Below are positions 2,706-29,384 of a stretch of DNA of 49,712 bases, piece after piece. The translations under genes were made by a program, and so were the position numbers. Under the pieces are notes generated by a model. That model made no database searches. It had not been told where the DNA came from and worked only from the letters and a program-made list of their open reading frames with translations. How positions within the stretch are numbered: position 1 is the stretch's first letter; each line of letters begins with the position of its first letter. This DNA is from an uncultured Gemella sp. (GTDB lineage Bacteria > Bacillota > Bacilli > Staphylococcales > Gemellaceae), in NCBI GenBank assembly GCA_927911745.1, contig CAKMQF010000113.1, positions 1-49,712 of the forward strand. The letters are read 5' to 3'.

Positions 2706-3923
2706 TTATTTTTTACTATTACTACGTAAATATTTTACATGAGATAAAATATTGGTAGCTATACCTAATCCTATACTTAATATTAAGATTGAACTACCAC
2801 CATTACTAATAAATGGCAATGGTACTCCAGTCATCGGTATAGAAGCAGTAACTCCTCCGATGTTAACAACTCCTTGGACAACTAGCAAACTGGCAAAACC
2901 TAAAGAGTACATTGCTGAAAATGTATTTCTTGATTTTGTACCAGAAAAAATTACTTTTCCAATAATAACTAGCAGTAACGCTACAACAAATAGTACTCCA
3001 ACTAATCCTAATTCTTCAGCTATAATTGCAAGGATGAAATCTGTATGAGCTTCTGGTAAATATCCAAGTTTCTGAATAGAGTTACCTAACCCTCTACCGA
3101 ATAACCCTCCATTACCAAAAGCAACATATGAATTTATCACTTGATCTGCAGCTGCTGCTAAATCCTCAGAAAAAGGATTTAAAAATACTTTCAAACGATT
3201 TGTTCTATAAGAAGTACCACTTGAAAACAGTGCATTCTTAATCACAAATAGCATAAGTACTGCTACCCCTGCAATTAAAGCAAGTGACAAGATTTTTTTT
3301 ACATTTTTTGAATGCATATTAGAACACAAAGTCATAATCCCAATTACCGATAATGTAATAAGCATCATACCCGTATCATTTTGCGCAGCTATTAACGTAA
3401 CAAGTGCAAGAGGAATACTAAATATTTTCAACAGTTCTGAACTAGTGCATATTTGTCTCAACTTCTCTTTTCTTGTCTCTAAAATAAAAGCCATATACAT
3501 AATAATAAAGAGTTGTGCTAAAGTAGAAGGTTGAAAACTGAAAGAACCTATCCTAATCCAAGATTTTGCACCATTAATTGCCGGCATTAATTGTGGTATT
3601 AAAAGTAAAACAAACATTACAATAAAACCATATTTTAGTAATTCTTTCTCTTTAAAAACCTCGAATGGTACAGCAACCGAAAATAGTAAAAACGCTATAT
3701 AGGCTAAAATTGCCCACATGGCTTGTCGTTGTAGGAAATAAGTCTCACTTACGGGAATGCCAGATGTAAATGTTCCATATTTATTTCCTATCATACTAGC
3801 ACTATACACCATCATACAGCTTAAAACTAATAAAACTAATAGTGTCAATGCAACCATCCAATCTAAACGAACATGTCTTTTTTCATGCTTTATAGATCTA
3901 TGTATTTTCCCAAAAAGTTTCAT
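2706..3923 (-). CDS. ftsW: SEDS-family peptidoglycan glycosyltransferase FtsW
   Basis: Polytopic membrane protein that polymerises lipid II at the septum with a class B penicillin-binding protein. About ten hydrophobic segments are visible. SEDS hallmarks include GAKSWIRIG with FQPSTLAQ after it, QNDTGMMLI, GNGGLFGRGLGNSIQKLGYLPEAHTDFI, and the C-terminal PLPFISNGGSS. The AHTDFI and ISNGGSS forms favour FtsW over RodA, though RodA is not fully excluded. The frame is open from 3968, but the internal ATG at 3923 gives the usual MKLFGK start one base after the ylaN stop, suggesting translational coupling. The adjacency ylaN-ftsW is also seen in staphylococci. Confidence 0.9.
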   Translation of the reverse strand: MKLFGKIHRSIKHEKRHVRLDWMVALTLLVLLVLSCMMVYSASMIGNKYGTFTSGIPVSETYFLQRQAMWAILAYIAFLLFSVAVPFEVFKEKELLKYGFIVMFVLLLIPQLMPAINGAKSWIRIGSFSFQPSTLAQLFIIMYMAFILETRKEKLRQICTSSELLKIFSIPLALVTLIAAQNDTGMMLITLSVIGIMTLCSNMHSKNVKKILSLALIAGVAVLMLFVIKNALFSSGTSYRTNRLKVFLNPFSEDLAAAADQVINSYVAFGNGGLFGRGLGNSIQKLGYLPEAHTDFILAIIAEELGLVGVLFVVALLLVIIGKVIFSGTKSRNTFSAMYSLGFASLLVVQGVVNIGGVTASIPMTGVPLPFISNGGSSILILSIGLGIATNILSHVKYLRSNSKK

Positions 3924-3924
3924 A

Positions 3925-4209
3925 CTAATTCGCTTTACTTTCTTGAATAACAGTATTATACATTTCACTAGCCTTATCTTCTAAATCAGCTAAAATAATA
4001 CGTCCAGCTTCTTCTGAAATGCATCCTATTTCTACAGCAATGTTAATTTCTTTTGAAAGACCGTAAATTTGAGTATCTATTACATCTTGGTACAAGGGAC
4101 ATGTTCTCTGACCTTTTACCGATACACAAGCATTAATCATTTCTTCAATCTTCATAACATCTTCTTCTATTCTCTTACGTACCTTAATAAAAATAAGGTT
4201 GTTTTCCAT
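3925..4209 (-). CDS. ylaN: YlaN family protein (UPF0358)
   Basis: Small cytosolic protein of 94 residues. The family core is clear: CPLYQDVIDTQIYGLSKEI at about residues 37-55, followed by a helical C-terminus. In Bacillus and Staphylococcus, YlaN is needed under iron limitation and has been reported to bind iron and relieve Fur repression. That role is known for the family, not shown here. The stop codon nearly touches the ftsW start, so the pair is likely one operon. The frame is intact. Confidence 0.88.
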   Translation of the reverse strand: MENNLIFIKVRKRIEEDVMKIEEMINACVSVKGQRTCPLYQDVIDTQIYGLSKEINIAVEIGCISEEAGRIILADLEDKASEMYNTVIQESKAN

Positions 4210-4219
4210 TTAATCTCAC

Positions 4220-4420
4220 CTATCCTTTTGATAATTCATGATTAACTTCATGTTTTATAATTGCTATTGCTCTTATAAAATCTTCTTTTGAAATTAATTC
4301 TAAGCGTCTTAACTCTCTTACCTCATATTCTACCATACTTAATGTATGTTTTCTATCTTTCATGTATATTATTATACCAAAAGATTTTAAAAATTGTTGC
4401 AAATCGTAAAAATTTATCAT
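4220..4420 (-). CDS. yqgQ: YqgQ family protein (DUF910)
   Basis: A 66-residue protein with the YqgQ pattern: FYDLQQFLKSFGIIIYMKDR at the N-terminus, then EYEVRELRRLELISKEDF and a helical end. The family is predicted to bind single-stranded nucleic acid, but its function is unknown. In Bacillus, yqgQ lies beside the rhomboid gene yqgP. The same pairing occurs here, 10 bases downstream of the rhomboid/TPR gene, which supports the identity of both. No defect is visible. Confidence 0.85.
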   Translation of the reverse strand: MINFYDLQQFLKSFGIIIYMKDRKHTLSMVEYEVRELRRLELISKEDFIRAIAIIKHEVNHELSKG

Positions 4421-4430
4421 TTACATCACC

Positions 4431-5869
4431 TTAAAATTTACTTAGCTCATCTACTAGATTTTTGTTTTTCTCTCTTCCATCTAGTTCATACGCTATTTTA
4501 GCATATTCCTTAGCTTTTTCATAGTTACCTTCTTGTCGTTCAATAACAGCTAAATTATAGTAGATTGGAGAAAATGTACCATCAAAACTTATACCGTCCA
4601 AGAATACCTTTTTAGCATCTTGCTTAGTTGCATTTGTCATTTTCACCATACCTAACTCATAATAAGTAAGTACAGATTTATTTTTTGATGTTAATTCTTT
4701 TTCTAAATTGAATATATCCTCATCTGAATAAGTTTTTACTAATCTACTCTCTACTCTACTCGCTCTATATCTATTAATAACACTCTTAGTATTTACGCCC
4801 GCTAATAATAGTGCTTCACCTAAAACACCAAAGATTAATATTGATATTAATGTAATATAAATATTTCTTTTTTCATTAAGAAAAGTTCTAAAAACACTCC
4901 TAAAATGAAAGAAAAAATATAAAGTATTATTGAGGTTTCAAATACAAGTGTAGCAATAGTTAGATATACTATTGACACTGCACCAGAATACATAAACTTC
5001 AGATTATCATTTTTCTTACTAAGTTGCTCCATAAAAATTGAACCTAGCAATGCAATATTAGAAACTAACGCTATATCAAGCGTACCAGAGTAACCAAATA
5101 TCAATAACAAATTAAAAATAAATGATACTACTAATAATATCCCTATACTCTTCAATATATTTAATGTTTTATTAAAAAGTATTGAAGTAACAAAAATCGA
5201 AACCAAGACAAGCAATAATTTCATAGAATTATCAGTAGTAAACACACTTGTGAACATTCTATAAAATTGTCCACTTATTATTTTTTGATAACTATATTCA
5301 ATATAATTATATAGAGAATAAGTATTATTCGATAAATAAAGTACAACAAAATTTACCAAAAATAATAATAAATATATACCTGATAAAATATTATATTTTA
5401 CATTAAAAACATTTCTATCTAATGTCTGTCGTTTATAAAGTTCAACTACCCTATTTTTATATCTTAGAGTATCTGGCGTTCCTTCAATAAATCTAGAGTC
5501 TTTTTCTTTTAAGAATAGCTTACTATTCTTTTCATTATAAAGTATACGCTCAATAATCAAGCTATTTGAAATTCTATATTTTTTGTAATCATCGATAACT
5601 TCATCGAAGTCAGGAGAAACATAAAGGATTTTCATTTTTAAACTACTCAGTTTAAACATTTTTTTAAGTCTAACTTCATTTCTAATTACATTAGAAACTA
5701 TACTATCTATCTCTGTTGATTTAAAACTATCCCCATATATAAATCTTATTAATTCATTATCTTCATTAATAAGCCAGACATCTTTCTTTTCTGGACGATA
5801 ATATAATATACTATAATTATATTTTGTTATATACAGATATATAATCTTCCAAAATTTCTTATCATTCAT
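4431..5869 (-). CDS. Rhomboid-like membrane protein with C-terminal TPR, catalytic residues lost (YqgP/GluP/ActH type; frameshifted)
   Basis: N-terminal cytosolic domain of about 150 residues, then a membrane block from about residue 158, a further helix (IYITLISILIFGVLGEALLL), then a TPR tail containing YNLAVIERQEGNYEKAKEYA. This is the architecture of YqgP/GluP and of staphylococcal ActH, the activator of the amidase LytH. The rhomboid entry motif survives as GQFYRMFTSVF. However, the position of the GxSG serine reads IALV, the catalytic histidine region reads LYIFSFILG, and the HxxxN of helix 2 is absent. The frame stops at 4847; one more A in the run near 4864 joins it to the segment ending at 4431. 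That indel is probably sequencing error, while the active-site losses are substitutions. It is followed by yqgQ. I infer a pseudo-rhomboid scaffold. Confidence 0.75.
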
Positions 5870-20941: not shown

Positions 20942-20985
20942 TAAAAAAAGATTAACCTAAATTTTTCTAGGTTAATCTTTTTTTT
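20942..20985 (-). terminator. Terminator of the rel-dtd-lytH operon
   Basis: A perfect 13-bp stem (aaagattaaccta with taggttaatcttt) lies directly after the reconstructed lytH-like stop, followed on the minus strand by seven T. A and T tracts on both sides could make it bidirectional. Confidence 0.9.
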
Positions 20986-22433
20986 CTATTTACTAAACAC
21001 CCAAGCTTGAGCAAGGTTGTTTTTTATATCATTTTCTGTAAAACCATTGTAACTTGTAAGTTTAACATCATCGTCATTCGGATCATTTATATAGAATTTA
21101 TCGTCTTCAAAACCACGAATAACTTTATATGTTACTCTGTCACCAAATACTCCAGATTTTAGTCTAACAAGTATAGGTTTATTATCTCTTAAGGCATTTT
21201 CTAAGTTTTCTACTAATTTATCAGTCTCGATTCGTTCAACTTTTAAGATTATATTTTTTCAGCAAAAGCTGTAATAATCGTAGGTTGAGTTCCTTGATTT
21301 CTGATATAGTACTTATTGCCTGCCCAAGAAGCTAGCTCTTCTACAGTTGCTTCATCTTTACCAATATATTTTGCAATCATCGCAAGCGAGATAATAGCAT
21401 CACCATTATCCTCAATTGTTTTCTTACCATCAAGACCATAAGCTATATTTTTATATGCATCTTGTTTCATATAATACATAGGAACAGAAAGACCTTTTTG
21501 TGGTAAGTTAAGTAACTGTTCTTTTCGTTTCGCATTATAATTATCAATATTAATTAAATAATACAAGTATCCCTCTACACCATCTCTTAACGATTCGATA
21601 AATTGTTTATTAGCTATTTCGTTATTTAATAAATCAACATCAATTTTATTCCCTATATTAGCCGAGATCAATTTCACTTGAGGTAATTTATCACTTAATT
21701 GAGGGAAATTCGCCTGTTTCTCAGATGATGATATCTTCGAAATATAGTGTTCAGAAAGATTTTTTTCAATACTTCTTGCTACAATAGATGATTCTTGTGT
21801 TCCATAGTATACTTTTACACCAAAAACTTCTTTGTTGCTATCATTATTAGTATCAATATCAATTAACATTTCCACTGAGTTTTCTGCAGCAATTTTTAGA
21901 ATATCTTCTTTTGAAGGATACGAATCGTCATTATCTCTTGTTAATATTACTTTTATTCCATCTTTTTCTAATACTTCTTTCAACTGTTTAGCTAGTTTCA
22001 AATTATAAGATTTAGAAGATATTCCTTTATAATCAATCTTCTCTTCTTGTGAATTAACAGGATTCAATAAGACTGAAAAAGAAGCTAATTTTTCCTTATT
22101 TTGATCTTCAGGACTTTTCTGACCAGTTCCTAAAATACTCCAACCTGGTATCCATCCCACAAAACTATCCTTCGTTTTTACTTCATACCAATTTTCAGAT
22201 TTACTTAACATTTCAACATTATCTCCAGCAGTCACTTTTTTTAATGTTGGATAAGTATCATCTGGTCCTGTTCTAATTTCAATTTCTTTTGCAATAGTAA
22301 TATTATTTTCGGAATTAGGTGATAAATTCATTTTTTCACCTATATATGTTACTACGCCTCCTACAACAAATACTAATAACAATATAGATATTACGAATAA
22401 TATTCCATTCTTATTTCTTCTTTTTATTCTCAT
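20986..22433 (-). CDS. LytH-like cell-wall protein: TM, SH3, inactive amidase-3 domain and inactive C39-like domain (frameshifted)
   Basis: About 481 residues. Membrane helix at 10-31; bacterial SH3 domain about 43-102 (EIEIRTGPDDTYPTL, GWIPGWS). An amidase_3-like domain covers about 117-300. The zinc His motif is replaced by SVLLNPVNSQ, the Glu ligand region reads ISSKSYNLKL, and the second His segment reads MLIDIDTNND, so all metal ligands appear lost. A C39-like domain follows. Its GCG-type Cys segment reads DNGDAIISLAMI and its His segment reads VTYKVIRGF, while NDP is kept. The ORF stops at 21249; one more A near 21255 restores NIILKVERIETDK through QAWVFSK to 20986. It lies in rel-dtd-lytH order as in staphylococci, where LytH is an active amidase. 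I infer a pseudoenzyme or scaffold. Confidence 0.78.
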
Positions 22434-22435
22434 AA

Positions 22436-22887
22436 TTATTTTCCTGCTGATAATTTTTCGTAAACAATAGTAATAGGACCATCGTTAACAATATTAACTT
22501 CCATCATTGTTTGAAAATACCAGTCTCTACTGTTACACCTTCTTCTCTCAAAAATTCATTAAATTTTTCGTATAATTCATTAGCTTTTTCCGCACCAGCA
22601 GCACTTGTAAAACTTGGTCTATTACCTTTTTTCGTATCAGCATATAAAGTAAATTGTGAAACTGATAAGATACTTCCTCCAACATCTTTTAGACTCAGGT
22701 TGATTTTATCATTTTCGTCTTCAAATAAGCGTGCTTGTGCTACCTTTTTTGCTAAATATTTTGCATCTTCCTCAGTAGATTCTTTATGAACTCCTACTAA
22801 AAGACAGTATCCTTTATCAATACTACCAACAACTTTATTATCAACACTCACACTAGCTTTTTTAACTTTTTGTAATATAATTTTCAT
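22436..22887 (-). CDS. dtd: D-aminoacyl-tRNA deacylase (frameshifted at the C-terminus)
   Basis: Removes D-amino acids mischarged on tRNA; cytosolic homodimer. The family motif [17 protein letters not shown] lies near residues 77-93, with the start [16 protein letters not shown]. The second active-site motif near the C-terminus would be [17 protein letters not shown]. As given, the frame ends at 22504 after GIFKQ; one more C near 22515 (ttcc for ttc) restores it, giving the usual 150 residues ending at 22436, two bases before the lytH-like start. It sits between rel and the lytH-like gene, the standard Bacillales order. Confidence 0.93.
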
Positions 22888-22895
22888 ATATCCAC

Positions 22896-25075
22896 CTATT
22901 TAACTATTCTTTCTACGCTATATACGTCTTGAATTTGTCGTAATTTTTTTAATCATATAATCGCATTCACTAACATTTTTCACATATATCCCTATCGTAA
23001 TAACACATGTTTTATCAGCTTTCGATTCAGAATTAAGTTTTTTAATCTCAACTCTACTTTCACTTAATGTTAATAGAACGTTTTGCAATAACAGTTCTCT
23101 ATCAAAAGCGTGAATTTGTAGTGTTACACTGTAACGACGTGCATTTAAGCTTTCTACCCATTCAACATCCAATAATCTTGCATGATCCTCTTCACTTAAA
23201 TTTGGACAATTATGTCTATGAACTGTAACTCCTCGACCTTTTGTAATAAAGCCTACTATGTTATCTCCTGGAATTGGTTGACAACATTTAGATAATCTTA
23301 CAAGAATATTATCTACACCTTTAACATAGACACCAGTTTCAGTTACTATTTTTTTATTTTCTTCTGCATTGAAAAGTTTTCTCAATTTTCGCTTGAGTCA
23401 TCTTTTCTTTTCTAATTTTTTCTGTTAATCTTGCAAAGACTTTATTCGCTGTAATTCCACCATATCCTATGGCAACATACATTTCTTCAAGATTAGCAAA
23501 TTTATATTTATTAAGAGCTGTAGCGATATTTTCTTCAGTTAAAACCTCATCTATATCAAAGTTATTAGCTTTAATCTCATCTTTTAATAAGATTTCACCT
23601 TTTACTAAGTTTTCTTCACGAGCTGCTTTTTTGAAGAATGCTTTAATTTTCGACTTAGTCTGAGATGAAGTAGCTATTTCTAACCATGAGCGATTAGGTC
23701 CAGTAGAATTTTTACTAGTACGAATATCACAAATTTCACCAGTTGATAATACATAATCAAATGGCTCGATTTTATCATTTACAGTAGCTCCTACCATCTT
23801 ATTACCAACTTCTGAGTGAATCGCATAGGCAAAGTCAACAATACATGAACCTTTAGGTAATTCAATAATATCACTATTAGGTGTAAAGACATAAATTTTA
23901 TCACTCAATAAATCTACTTTTAATGATTCCATAAAGCTTTCAGCAGTTGCTTCTGTCTCATCATTTTCTGCGATTTTTTGGAACCAGTTTAATTTTTCAT
24001 AGAAGTTATTATTTTTATTAACCTTCTTACCTTCTTTATATGCCCAGTGCGCAGCAATCCCTTTCTCTGCAATTTCATGCATTTCATAAGTTCTAATTTG
24101 AACTTCTAAAGTTTGTCCATCAGGTGCAATTACCGTAGTGTGAAGCGATTGATACATATTAGGTTTTGGCATCGCAATATAGTCTTTAATTCTTCCTGGA
24201 ATAGGTACCCAAAGATTATTTACAAGACCTAAAGTAGCATAACAATCTGCTACGCTATCTACCAAGACACGGACAGCTAGTAAATCATAAATCTGGTCAA
24301 AAGTTTTATTTTGTTTAACCATTTTTTTATAAATACTATAAATATGTTTTGGTCTTCCAGTAACCTGTGCTTTTATATTATTATCAGCTAAAATTGACGT
24401 TATACTAGAGCATGCATTTTTTATACTCTCTTCCCTTGCACTTCTCTTCTGTTTCATCATCCCTACTATTGAAAAATATTGAGATGGATGTAAGTATCTA
24501 AGAGAGGTGTCTTCTAGTTCCCATTTTACTGAACTTATCCCCAATCTATGAGCTAACGGTGCATAAATTTCAAGTGTTTCACTAGAAATTTCACGTTGTT
24601 TTTCCTCACGCATATACTTCATAGTTCTCATATTATGAAGTCTATCTGCTAGTTTAACAAAAATAACTCGTAAATCTTTCGCTATCGATACAAAAAGTTT
24701 CCTATGATTTTCTGCTTGTGATTGCTTTTTAGAACGGAATTTTACCTTATCTAGTTTTGTAACTCCATCGACTATTACCGCTATATCTTCTCCAAATGTT
24801 TCTTTAATATCATCAAACGTATACTTGGTATCTTCTACAACATCATGTAAGAAACCAGCACAAATTGTTGCATAATCTAATTTAAGCTCAGTTAAAATTC
24901 CTGCAACTTGAACTGGGTGTAATATATATGGTTCCCCTGATTTTCTAAATTGTCCTTCGTGAGCAATTTTTGCAAATTCATAAGCTTTTCTTATAATTTT
25001 AATTTGCTCATCTGATAAATATTTACTCGCCATATCTTCTACATTTTCATAACTATATGGATATTCAAGATTCAC
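22896..25075 (-). CDS. rel: Bifunctional (p)ppGpp synthetase/hydrolase Rel (two frame disruptions)
   Basis: Makes and degrades the stringent-response alarmone. Domain order: HD hydrolase ([36 protein letters not shown]), synthetase ([40 protein letters not shown]), TGS ([17 protein letters not shown]), a zinc-finger/conserved-Cys region ([20 protein letters not shown]) and ACT. The frame breaks near 23382 (one A too many, within [11 protein letters not shown]) and near 22942 (one A too many, before [11 protein letters not shown]). The frame is open to 25198, but GTG at 25075 preceded by aggagg gives the correct [14 protein letters not shown] start. About 726 residues. Loss of a real rel would be unusual, so sequencing error is favoured. 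Confidence 0.95.
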
Positions 25076-25220
25076 AGAAATTCCTCCTCTTTCGTAATTT
25101 AATCTACCCTTATAATACCACAAAAACAAGAAAATTTCCCGTATTTTATCAAAATTATTATATTTTTCAACTGTTTTCATGCCATGTACTTTAAACAAAT
25201 ATAAAAAAACAATTTCTAGA

Positions 25221-25257
25221 TATAAAAAATCCTACGTTCAAATTTTGAACTAGGATT
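25221..25257 (-). terminator. Rho-independent terminator of lysP
   Basis: The stem aatccta and gttcaaa with tttgaac and taggatt (25228-25257) follows the lysP stop, with a minus-strand T-rich tail (ttttttata). Confidence 0.88.
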
Positions 25258-25265
25258 AAATTTAA

Positions 25266-26763
25266 TTATTTAGTATCTACATCTTGAGATAAATCAACTT
25301 TATCTAATGGTATCATTTTTGTTTTATATCTAATTTTGTGGTATAGATAGAAGAATAAGAAGATTGGAACTCCCATGTAAGTAGTTAGCATTCCACTCCA
25401 GTTAACTACACCTTTAGTAATAAGTTCAGTATCTTGACCAATAATAACGATGATACATAATACTAAAGCTATGATTGGTCCTACAGGGAACCATTTTGCT
25501 CTATATTTAAGATCATTTAAATCTTTACCTTGAGCGATAAATGCTCTTCTAAATCTATAGTGACTTAACGCAATACCTAACCAAGCGATAAATCCAGTTA
25601 ATCCACTCGCTGCTACGATATAAGTATAAGCGTTAGCACTTGTAAGTTGGATTAAGAAGATTAAGAATACTACTGCAGCTGTTGCGATTAATGAGATAAC
25701 AGGAGTACCGTATTTAGTAACACGACCAAAAATTGGATACGCAAGTTTTTCTTTACTCATCGCATAAAGCATTCTTGTTGATGCATACATACCTGAGTTA
25801 CCAGCTGATAGGATTGATGTTAAGATTACTGCATTCATTACACTTGCTGCTAATGCAAAACCTGCATTTTTTGAAGACAATTGTAAATGGTGATTTAGCA
25901 ATTTCTTCAGCACTTGCAGCACCTAATAAATCTGGTGAAGTATAAGGAATTAATAATCCGATTACTAAGATAGCTAGTACGTAGAAGATTAAAATTCTCC
26001 AGAATACTTGTTTTACAGCTTTTGGAATACTTTTCTCTGGATTTTCACTTTCACCAGCAGTAATACCGATTAACTCAGTACCTTGGAATGAATATCCAGC
26101 AATTAAGAATACTCCAAGAGTTGCAAGGATTTGTCCAGATAATGATGAATCTTCACCAACGAATGGAGCATCACCAATTGTTAAGTTTTTGAATCCAATA
26201 TATTCTCCACCTAAAATACCGAAGATTGTTAAGCATCCAACTACTAAGAAAATGATTACTACTACTACTTTAATAAGTGCAAACCAATATTCACTTTCAC
26301 CATATACTTTAACACTAAGTGAGTTTAAAGCGATAATAATAACTAGGAATAATAAGCTCCAAGCCCAGTGAGGAAGTACTCGCATAGGCTCCCAATAACT
26401 AATAGCTAATGCAGATAATTCTACATCAGCAGCTACTGTAATTACCCAGTTAAACCAATAGTTCCATCCTAAAGCAAATCCTAATGAAGGATCCACATAA
26501 CGTGTAGCATATGTACTAAATGACCCTGATGTAGGAAGATATGTTGCCATTTCCCCTAATGATGTCATTAAGAAATATACCATAAGCCCGATACATAGGT
26601 AAGCTACGATAGCTCCCCCAGGTCCCGCACTTTGAATTGCTTGACCACTTGTCATGAATAATCCACTACCGATACATCCTCCGATAGCAATCATACTAAT
26701 ATGACGTGATCGTAAATTTCTTTTTACTTCTGTTGCATTATTGTTATTGCTGTTGTTTGTCAT
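25266..26763 (-). CDS. lysP: Lysine-specific permease LysP (frameshifted)
   Basis: Twelve-helix APC transporter for lysine uptake, about 498 residues. The start MTNNSNNNNATEVKRNLRSR is followed by the APC motif MIAIGGCIGSGLFMTSG. Then come MTSLGEMATYLPTSGSFSTYATRYVDP and LGWNYWFNWVIT, which match the LysP subgroup closely. GTELIGITAGESENPEKSIP and the later RMLYAMSKEKLAYPIFGRV are also typical. The frame breaks near 25880 (six A where five keep frame: IVFKNAGFALAAS). Start ATG at 26763 has aaggagg; the longer open frame to 26796 is not needed. A lysine riboswitch directly upstream confirms the substrate independently. Confidence 0.95.
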
Positions 26764-26779
26764 AATAAAAACCTCCTTG

Positions 26780-27040
26780 ATAAAATAAAAAAGCATAACC
26801 TCCTACCATATTTGCACGGAGTTATACTTCACATTATCTCTCCAAAACAAGATATTAGTAGCGCAACATAGCCTCACGACTATGACAGTCCTATACTTAG
26901 TTCAATATAGGCCCAACAATATTAACATAGGATTAATATCATTTCGGCGATGTTTCCTTTCAAGTAATATCATCAAGTCCTATACTTTCAATTACCCTAC
27001 TGATAAAAATCGCAACCTCTACCTCACTTACTTTGTGAGG
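26780..27040 (-). promoter_or_regulatory. Lysine riboswitch (L box) with terminator, controlling lysP
   Basis: The minus strand carries L-box landmarks in order: ggtagaggttgcg (27023-27011), agtaggg, gaaagg...cgccgaaatg (near 26955-26940), gggcc, ggactgtca (26893-26885), and ggctatgttgcgctac. It is followed by a terminator stem (aagtataactcc with ggaggttatgctt, one bulge, 26791-26829) and a T-rich tail, then the lysP ribosome binding site. Lysine binding is expected to favour termination and shut off uptake. The 61-codon open frame at 26960-27145 overlaps the element and is not a gene. Confidence 0.9.
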
Positions 27041-27064
27041 TACATATTCAATTAACTGTTTATT

Positions 27065-27093
27065 AGTATAATATACTTTTTTATTGTTGTCAA
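27065..27093 (-). promoter_or_regulatory. Sigma-A promoter of the lysine riboswitch-lysP transcript
   Basis: Minus strand TTGACA (27088-27093), 17-base spacer, TATACT (27065-27070), just upstream of the aptamer. Confidence 0.85.
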
Positions 27094-27197
27094 TAAAAAT
27101 TTTAATTTTTTCTAAAAATTTAATTAAATATTGAATATATTGCACTATATTCTACTTTTATAAGAATAATATTCATTACATCAATACTTTATATATC

Positions 27198-27235
27198 AAA
27201 AAAGAAGGAGCTTAAAACCTCCTTCTTTTTTTAAA
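27198..27235. terminator. Terminator downstream of fbp and the small peptide
   Basis: Perfect 13-bp stem (27198-27210 with 27219-27231, core gaaggag/ctccttc) with A/T tracts on both sides. It ends the leftward fbp transcript and could also stop rightward reads. Confidence 0.88.
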
Positions 27236-27283
27236 AATACTAACAAGTATCTTTTTATATCTAACAGTTTGATAAACAAATGA

Positions 27284-27388
27284 CTAATTAATCATTTTAT
27301 TTTCTTTTCGTTTTTTCAATAGTTTATAATTTGTTATTATTCCTAGTATCATTAAAATTTCTAGTATACTTAATAAAATCTTCATCAT
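27284..27388 (-). CDS. Small single-TM membrane peptide (34 residues), unknown
   Basis: Reads MMKILLSILEILMILGIITN followed by YKLLKKRKENKMIN and a stop. It has one hydrophobic helix (about residues 3-20) with a strongly basic C-terminal tail, and an excellent ribosome binding site (aaggggga) six to eight bases before the double ATG. It lies 47 bases after the reconstructed fbp stop and is followed by a terminator, so it may be the last cistron of the fbp transcript. Size and layout recall type I toxins or small regulatory membrane peptides. No antisense RNA promoter could be confirmed. It is too short for routine gene callers. Confidence 0.55.
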   Translation of the reverse strand: MMKILLSILEILMILGIITNYKLLKKRKENKMIN

Positions 27389-27435
27389 CTCTCCCCCTTT
27401 AATACAAAGAAACTCAGAATATCAATTTATATTAA

Positions 27436-29384
27436 CTAATATCTTTCACAAATTGCCCCTTGACGATATTCTTCTAATAAAATTTTTAATAATTCAATTT
27501 GTTTTTTTATTCTTGCACCGCTATCTGTATCAGCTACTTTTTTTTCGACATAATTTATCTACAACTCTCTTAGTTGAAATAATATCCGTCTCATTTTTGA
27601 TTGACTCTTCTTTACTTTGGAAGATATCATGACTCATTATCTGTAACCCATAAGAATTGTAAGTTAATGTATAACCACCATGACCTGTTGTTTTATGATA
27701 AGCCCTAGACATCCCACCATCAATAACAATCGTTCTACCATTAGCTTTAATCGGATTTTCTCCTTTTGTTTCCTTAACAGGAGTATGCCCATTTATAATG
27801 TGACCTTCACTAGTTAACCCAAACTCATTTAATAACTTAATGCAAAACTCTTCATCATCTCTAAGTTTATAATACGCATTTTTTACTTCTTCATGAGTAG
27901 ATTTATCCTCTATAAAATATCTTTCGAACGTCGTCATATCACATTTACCAAATAATGGAGAGTATCGACCTTGCCATAAGTAAAAGAACAGCCCATTATC
28001 TTCTCTACAACCACAATAAAATATGCTACGAATTTTTTTTATCAAAAAAGTCTAGTAGATTCTTACCTGAGTATTTCTTTCCTCCATAAGAAAATTCCTG
28101 GAAGTTTCCATTCTCATCTACCGGCATGCAACCGTGAAGAAGTAGATTCCCATTATAGCAACAATACATAGCACCTTTATTGATAAATAATTCAACATGT
28201 TTTTTTAATTTTTCACTTGCTATAAATGATTCTTTTAGTCTATTAATAATCTTTTCTTCTTCATCTGTTAATAAATATGGATTTTCTTTATCAACTGTTG
28301 GGAAGTTACATGACGTTAATGGATATTCTTTACCATAGATTTTTACAGTTTCTTTTTCAAAGTCAATTTTGTCTAGTAACGCACGTGATTCCAAATCAAA
28401 CTCAGGATGTTTATCAATAATTTGTTTTTCTAATTTGAATTGAATTATTGCCATAGCTTTATGCATTCTAGCTATTTGCATAATTTCATGCTCACTATAT
28501 TTCAACTCATCATCCTTAGATATTTTTGGTAAAAACTCTTTACAGTGATCATCCTTGTAGTACTTTTCACTAAAGTTTAATAAATTCCTAATAGGAATTC
28601 CATATCTATCTTCTATAATGTCTAAATTATCATATCTTGCACATATTCTGATTACATTTGCTAATGATATTCTGTCTCCAAGATAAGCTCCTATCCATAA
28701 CATATCGTGATTTCCCCATTGAATATCAACAGAATGGTAGTCTAATAATCTATCCATTATTTTATCAGGAAAAGGTCCTCTATCATAGATATCTCCTACA
28801 ATATGTAAATGGTCGATTGTTAACTTGTGGATACTTAATGATAATTCTATAATAAACTTTTCTCCAGCACCTAATTCAATAATATTCTCAAGTATTTTAT
28901 CATAGTAATCATTCTTATCACTACTTTGCATTTTATAAAGTAATTCATCAATAATATACTTGAAATCTTTTGGCAAAATTTTTCTTACTTTCGATCTAGT
29001 ATACTTCCTAGCTGCTACTTGTGTTACTTCTAATAATCGAAGAAGCGTAATTTTTTGAAACTCTTTATAATCACATACATCATATTCTTTTCTTATAAGA
29101 TTTAATTTTTCTTCTGGATAATAAATAATAGTAGCTAAAAGATTTAAATCTTTTCTAGGTAGTCTATTACCAAATACTTCTTTAAGTTTTTCTTTAATAA
29201 TACCCGAACCATTTCTTAAAATGTGATCAAAGGCTTCATATTCTCCATGAATATCACTTAAAAAATGCTCTGTTCCTTTAGGAAGTGTTAATATAGCCTC
29301 TAAATTAATTATTTCCTTAGTTGTTTCATCAATGCTTTGAAAGTTTTCTGCTAATAGTTCTAAATGTTCCTTAGATATTTTCAT
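27436..29384 (-). CDS. fbp: Fructose-1,6-bisphosphatase class III (two frame disruptions)
   Basis: Gluconeogenic phosphatase of the Firmicute-specific class III, about 648 residues when reconstructed. Metallophosphatase motifs are clear: [16 protein letters not shown] near 42, [14 protein letters not shown] near 195, [12 protein letters not shown] near 222, and later [10 protein letters not shown] and [10 protein letters not shown]. The frame breaks in an eight-A run near 28034 ([12 protein letters not shown] needs seven) and in an eight-A run near 27545 ([11 protein letters not shown] needs seven). The protein then ends AICERY at 27436. Both are homopolymer length changes. Ribosome binding site aaaggag. 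A small peptide gene and then a terminator follow. Confidence 0.93.

Follow-up and report, generated by a model that had tools for sequence, protein, structure and literature searches.

LytH of Staphylococcus is a membrane amidase; it trims stem peptides off peptidoglycan that is not crosslinked. Page et al. are said to have shown in 2022 that the amidase-activating function of its partner ActH is carried by the tetratricopeptide repeats (TPRs). Complex formation of the two proteins in S. aureus, and the need of LytH for ActH to be active, are described in two papers (PMC13104630, PMC9733580). Degenerate hydrolases are already established as regulators, CwlM and EnvC being the examples in PMC4946905, which describes CwlM of mycobacteria as a degenerate Amidase_3 protein that controls MurA, is cytoplasmic and lacks a predicted secretion signal. 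The stretch analyzed here, referred to as the window, is a 49,712-nt contig of an uncultured Gemella sp. (CAKMQF010000113.1, assembly GCA_927911745.1) that carries a lytH-like gene and, about 15 kb from it, an orthologue of actH. Judged from alignments and gene order, the Gemellaceae orthologue of LytH, which has a C39 tail, and the ActH orthologue have both lost their catalytic motifs, while reading frames and gene neighborhoods are kept. The original prediction concerned the lytH-like gene; new is that the ActH orthologue encoded in the same window shows a parallel loss. In the literature searched, which comprised open-licence papers only, no description was found of a LytH-ActH pair in which both partners have lost catalysis.

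Compared with Staphylococcus LytH, the Gemella protein lacks the zinc histidines and the catalytic Glu and possesses an added, degenerate C39 domain. With CwlM it has in common that it belongs to the Amidase_3 family and that the zinc residues are not conserved, but it carries an N-terminal transmembrane (TM) helix (residues 8-35), an SH3 and a C39 domain, is encoded at the lytH locus, and is not of the cytoplasmic type. The fold, spacing and triad Asp of the C39 part are those of other Peptidase C39_2 proteins of Gemellaceae, from which it differs by the replacement of Cys by Asp and of His by Thr or Ser and by its fusion to LytH. The second protein resembles ActH and YqgP in its position before yqgQ, its length of about 480 amino acids, its membrane core and its C-terminal TPRs. 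It differs in the rhomboid residues, since His and Asn are gone from the aligned columns in 14/14 Gemellaceae sequences and Ser in 11/14.

Catalytic residues of the LytH-like protein

The gene and the parts of its product lie in the window as follows.

20986..22433, minus strand: lytH-like pseudoenzyme gene, consisting of a 394-amino-acid frame (21249-22433) and a second frame that ends at the stop codon 20986-20988
22329..22412, minus strand: N-terminal transmembrane-type helix, residues 8-35, preceded by basic residues (AlphaFold2 model of an orthologue; sequence)
22140..22277, minus strand: bacterial SH3 domain, residues 53-98 (PF08239, 34.6 bits, cut-off 27)
21558..22082, minus strand: degenerate Amidase_3 domain, residues 118-292
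22053..22055, minus strand: position of the first zinc ligand His, here Asn127 (this and the next three from alignment with staphylococcal-type LytH)
22014..22016, minus strand: position of the zinc ligand Glu, here Ser140
21852..21854, minus strand: position of the second zinc ligand His, here Asp194
21666..21668, minus strand: position of the catalytic Glu, here Ile256
20989..21407, minus strand: degenerate C39_2 peptidase-like domain, residues 343-481 of the intact relatives, interrupted by a frame change near 21.25 kb
21399..21401, minus strand: position of the C39 catalytic Cys, here Asp345 (this and the next from alignment with intact C39 references)
21130..21132, minus strand: position of the C39 catalytic His, here Thr434
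21082..21084, minus strand: Asp of the C39 triad (NDP), kept

To follow the zinc site through the lineage, the window protein was combined with those of 13 loci in relatives and with 120 listed of the 128 database proteins found. Many of these 134 Gemellaceae-type sequences are near-identical and some are fragments; those that carry species names belong to Gemella or Gemelliphila. Thirteen staphylococcal-type LytH sequences, all with the His-Glu-His ligands and the catalytic Glu, served as references. His was found in 0/134 sequences at either zinc His position, with Asp in 124/134 at the second, and the catalytic Glu was retained by none, a hydrophobic residue taking its place in 132/134. The Glu ligand was present in a single sequence (L010). 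The same four residues are kept in all of the 70 outgroup LytH loci that were read; these were the best matches out of 136 matching outgroup genomes, and the position after dtd was checked in 17.

The C39 domain shows a comparable picture. With the register of the alignment fixed by five intact C39 proteins of the same family, the Cys column holds Asp in 13/13 orthologues and Cys in 5/5 references, and the His column Thr or Ser in 13/13 orthologues and His in 5/5 references. All 13 orthologues keep the Asp of NDP. The original prediction that every visible catalytic residue is lost thus holds for the amidase domain of the window protein (Asn, Ser, Asp and Ile for His, Glu, His and Glu) but goes too far for the C39 Asp and for the Glu ligand of L010.

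Ligands might be sought elsewhere in the protein. None of the histidines in the protein is shared by all 13 orthologues, which leaves no conserved alternative zinc site of the His type. A His immediately precedes the Glu-ligand position in two orthologues (L003, L004) and in none of the other 11. The set contained no orthologue whose zinc ligands are intact. Chance or misalignment was rejected as a cause: within the genus the segments aligned around the Glu ligand and around the catalytic Glu contain no gaps, the strands and helices predicted for an orthologue fit the other two ligand positions, and the loss runs through the whole lineage, which is not expected of chance. The alignment of the first His is less certain in the second genus, where a loop is shorter, but none of the 13 orthologues has a His in the approximately 10 residues that follow a conserved N-P.

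A rearranged active site or another chemistry would still make the protein an enzyme. The amidase domain is under constraint, as discussed below, and Asp194, at the position of the second His, could weakly bind a metal. Yet besides the missing His, Glu223 is the sole invariant acidic residue in the amidase domain of the 13 orthologues, and the catalytic Glu has mostly given way to hydrophobic residues. We consider continued catalysis very unlikely. The alignments instead give good support to the view that the LytH-like protein of Gemellaceae is a pseudoenzyme, with catalytic residues lost from both enzyme domains.

The assignment of the domains is based on profiles and on fold. The Pfam search with the window piece returned Amidase_3 (PF01520, E 3.3e-18) and SH3_3, and the intact orthologue L002 additionally gave Peptidase_C39_2 (PF13529, 38.6 bits, cut-off 24). 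SH3_3 fell under its cut-off in L013, the most distant orthologue tested. For Amidase_3 the profile score exceeds the curated cut-off and the fold agrees; profile and fold likewise identify the C39_2 domain. A sequence search with the C39 part matched no solved C39 structure, but such structures were recovered by a fold search.

The coordinates originally given for the gene, which lies on the minus strand, are correct and all segments quoted from it (SVLLNPVNSQ, ISSKSYNLKL, MLIDIDTNND, GDAIIS, SLAMI, ELASWA, VTYKVI, YINDP) are present, but it is not one open frame. The 394-amino-acid frame ends early and the gene tail, with VTYKVI and YINDP, is in a different frame, a break that had gone unnoticed. 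The orthologues in 13 relatives have a single uninterrupted frame of 472-482 amino acids, and the protein of genome G009 is 96% identical to the first 393 residues of the window protein. Elsewhere in the window (22918-29384), three further genes (rel, an amino-acid permease gene and fbp) each occupy two overlapping frames, and the Pfam matches of the two pieces complement each other. Because the frame is intact in the relatives and other housekeeping genes are split in the same way, the breaks are most likely insertion or deletion errors in the sequence, the gene being intact in the organism.

The ActH orthologue

The second locus comprises the following genes.

4431..5869, minus strand: ActH/YqgP orthologue, degenerate rhomboid with C-terminal TPRs, split into 4847-5869 and 4431-4649
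4220..4420, minus strand: yqgQ, positional marker of the actH locus (PF06014, 73 bits)
3925..4209, minus strand: DUF1507 gene (PF07408), which we take to be ylaN-like
2706..3968, minus strand: FtsW/RodA-type peptidoglycan polymerase gene (PF01098, 265 bits)

An actH gene of one frame, encoding 478-481 amino acids, is present in 14 of the 15 Gemellaceae genomes; the remaining one (G015) is 66% complete. It adjoins yqgQ at 14/14 Gemellaceae and 10/11 outgroup loci. The FtsW/RodA-type gene is found at 14/14 Gemellaceae and 0/11 outgroup loci, for which approximately 1 kb after the actH stop was covered. With the first 340 residues of a Gemella ActH as query, staphylococcal-type ActH proteins were matched at E values from 1.6e-14 to 2e-6.

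In the 11 reference sequences the rhomboid residues are intact throughout. In the 14 Gemellaceae sequences the His column in TM6 holds Tyr (13) or Ser (1), the Asn of TM2 is lost from all, and the Ser column contains Leu (6), Val (3), Ser (3) or Asn (2). The Ser is missing in all nine members of the genus, and the three that have it are in the sister genus. A GYSG motif lies upstream of the aligned Ser site in 8/14 ActH-like proteins, 5 of which have no His at residues 166-346. The Pfam rhomboid model found no match in 9/9 genomes of the genus (G001-G009) and a match in 14/14 control genomes. It detects 1 of the 14 ActH-like proteins (G011); the two other Gemellaceae matches are separate short proteins (G012, G013).

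The TPRs are better preserved. Matches were obtained in L032, L035 and L043, those in L032 and L043 exceeding the curated cut-off, and rhomboid and TPRs together were found in a staphylococcal-type ActH. In a profile search the ActH structure 7tj4_A was matched at E 0.0015, ranked behind generic TPR proteins. The repeats are presumably extracellular.

Constraint on the two proteins

The ratio of nonsynonymous to synonymous substitution rates (dN/dS) for the whole LytH-like protein is 0.05-0.12 in seven Gemella pairs, the window pair covering the first piece only and dS being near saturation in the more distant pairs. For the amidase domain it is 0.05-0.17 in Gemella and 0.03-0.06 in five staphylococcal-type pairs. 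The gene is therefore under strong purifying selection, and the constraint is somewhat looser in the former catalytic domain. These values also bear on whether the gene is a pseudogene in decay or the product of a poor assembly, as the split frames of the window copy and of rel, fbp and the permease gene could suggest. With dN/dS far below 1, decay was rejected; the gene is intact in the 13 relatives and full length in most of the 120 listed database proteins, and for the family such an explanation is already refuted. We give it almost no weight. The description of the protein as a conserved pseudoenzyme is upheld by the intact orthologues, the loss of residues across the lineage, the intact outgroups, the dN/dS values and the folds.

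The distribution of constraint over the domains is informative. Mean pairwise identity among the 13 Gemellaceae LytH-like proteins is 71.9% in the connector, 64.8% in the C39 domain (41/139 columns invariant), 62.0% in SH3, 47.9% in the amidase domain (15/175 invariant) and 39.9% in the TM stretch. In eight staphylococci, out of 12 staphylococcal-family loci, the amidase domain is the best-conserved part of LytH (72.6%, 90/175 invariant); the sets differ in depth, so the order within each protein should be compared rather than the values. In Gemellaceae ActH the rhomboid part is 45.3% identical, the TPR part 63.7% and the cytoplasmic part 63.1%. Among all 10 staphylococcal-family ActH loci, taken without the 11th outgroup locus L054, the rhomboid part leads with 61.5%, narrowly over the TPRs (59.8%). 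Staphylococci thus conserve the catalytic core more than any other part of either protein; in Gemellaceae this former core ranks last among the folded domains of both.

Since SH3, connector and C39 domain are the most conserved parts of the LytH-like protein, a role as a peptidoglycan-binding scaffold is plausible on the alignments. The same distribution would fit a stand-alone wall-binding sensor or spacer, with most constraint held by these parts and least, among the folded ones, by the amidase domain; the loss in ActH would then be a coincidence or a sign that the former partnership has ended. ActH could be retained for another purpose, because its homologue YqgP acts with FtsH in membrane protein quality control in B. 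subtilis (PMC7231995). Against such independence, both losses occur in both Gemellaceae genera and the TPRs remain among the best-conserved parts of ActH, which leads us to regard a stand-alone role as improbable.

Other hydrolases of Gemellaceae

The LytH-like protein could also serve another enzyme. In 5/9 genomes of the nearest genus no Amidase_3 protein was found besides pseudo-LytH; there is thus no general Amidase_3 client, and a partner from this family was rejected as a rule. As pseudo-LytH is the only family member found there, these species may possess no active Amidase_3 enzyme at all. Four genomes of the genus (L064-L067) have one extra, intact Amidase_3 protein of secreted type with repeated wall-binding-like units. 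Of the 15 Gemellaceae genomes, 13 encode a C39_2 protein of about 290 amino acids (L159-L171) whose N-terminal region includes a hydrophobic stretch and whose Cys, His and Asp are intact.

This membrane-anchored C39_2 protein, whose triad was read as intact in 13/13 loci, would be the likeliest target if the LytH-like protein regulated a different, active hydrolase. The dead C39 tail, which is among the best-conserved parts of the protein, could then compete for substrate or pair with the live domain. Regulation of live hydrolases by a dead hydrolase domain is known from EnvC (PMC4946905). The identity between the C39 paralogue and the tail is just 25-30%, however. As a candidate source of the tail the paralogue is not distinguished either, since other C39 proteins score similarly or better. 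We hold regulation of another hydrolase to be unlikely.

A possible role for the pair

The conservation of both proteins in Gemella despite the missing residues suggests a job that requires no cutting. We see an even chance, on the sequences compared here, that the LytH-ActH complex has turned into a non-catalytic regulator or scaffold that binds the cell wall. In such a mechanism the LytH-like protein would be anchored by its TM helix and would reach the nascent wall through three parts, the SH3 domain, the groove of the pseudo-amidase and the pseudo-C39 domain. These could hold on to stem peptides or uncrosslinked strands but leave them uncut. The TPRs of ActH would still dock on the LytH-like protein. 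ActH might then relay to the wall-synthesis machinery, or position the pair with it, possibly through the FtsW/RodA-type polymerase encoded next to it. More tentatively, and at somewhat less than an even chance, the enzyme-activator pair may have been kept across the genus Gemella, and probably the family, as an all-pseudoenzyme complex of dead amidase, C39 peptidase and rhomboid that controls peptidoglycan synthesis by binding alone.

Several observations weigh against such a non-catalytic complex. The chief reservation is that stable binding of S. aureus LytH to ActH reportedly requires the LytH metal, according to Page et al. in 2022; a metal-free LytH might therefore not bind ActH. Of the folded parts, the amidase and rhomboid domains evolve fastest, which is also compatible with the simple loss of a function that the two proteins once shared. 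Genome G013 yielded neither pseudo-LytH nor dtd. On the side of ActH, three genomes (G010, G012, G013) keep the aligned Ser, and in G012 and G013 a His stands one position away from its column. Dyad loss is thus clear for all nine members of the genus and less certain in these two members of the sister genus. The ActH model was poor (mean predicted local distance difference test score of 42, from an alignment of near-identical sequences) and was not used, so that the fold rests on the alignment and one Pfam match (L042). Finally, transposon mutants of lytH and actH in S. aureus JE2 are described, in PMC13104630, as being without a severe division defect.

Should the dead pair still act, it would set the binding role of LytH-ActH apart from its cutting role. 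The loss itself provides a natural example of a known complex whose two members were both stripped of catalytic residues in the same lineage, and an all-pseudoenzyme complex, if real, would bring to light a non-enzymatic function that staphylococcal LytH-ActH may have as well. Members of Gemella are common human mucosal bacteria, and their wall metabolism is likely misread, because public records name several of the dead proteins amidase. Records naming such a protein N-acetylmuramoyl-L-alanine amidase are P0022, P0069, P0091, P0108 and P0116. Of the ActH-like proteins, P0322 is recorded as hypothetical and P0345 as a tetratricopeptide repeat protein.

Gene neighborhood

Two genes upstream define the lytH locus.

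22504..22887, minus strand: dtd, immediately upstream of the lytH-like gene (synteny)
22918..25198, minus strand: rel (RelA/SpoT), split into 23354-25198 (PF13328, PF04607, TGS) and 22918-23385 (ACT_4)

An amidase gene directly follows rel-dtd at 30/30 loci tested, which include 13/13 from Gemellaceae and 17/17 from the outgroup. In a profile search 149/157 genomes of the order matched the family profile. Matches over the whole protein, with the C39 part, were confined to the 13 Gemellaceae, and the outgroup matches stop at or before residue 310 among the matches listed. In G013 the search found neither the lytH-like gene nor dtd; a weak match falls in another amidase, and actH is present. As dtd is also missing, the lack of pseudo-LytH is probably an assembly gap. 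At the actH loci L043 and L044 the DUF1507 gene was unmatched.

One further element lies 3' of the lytH-like gene.

20943..20984, listed on the plus strand: intrinsic-terminator-like hairpin, 17 pairs, 3 of them G-C

The hairpin is symmetrical, and a run of T follows it on the minus strand as well. One terminator-like hairpin was found, against 0.6 expected by shuffling.
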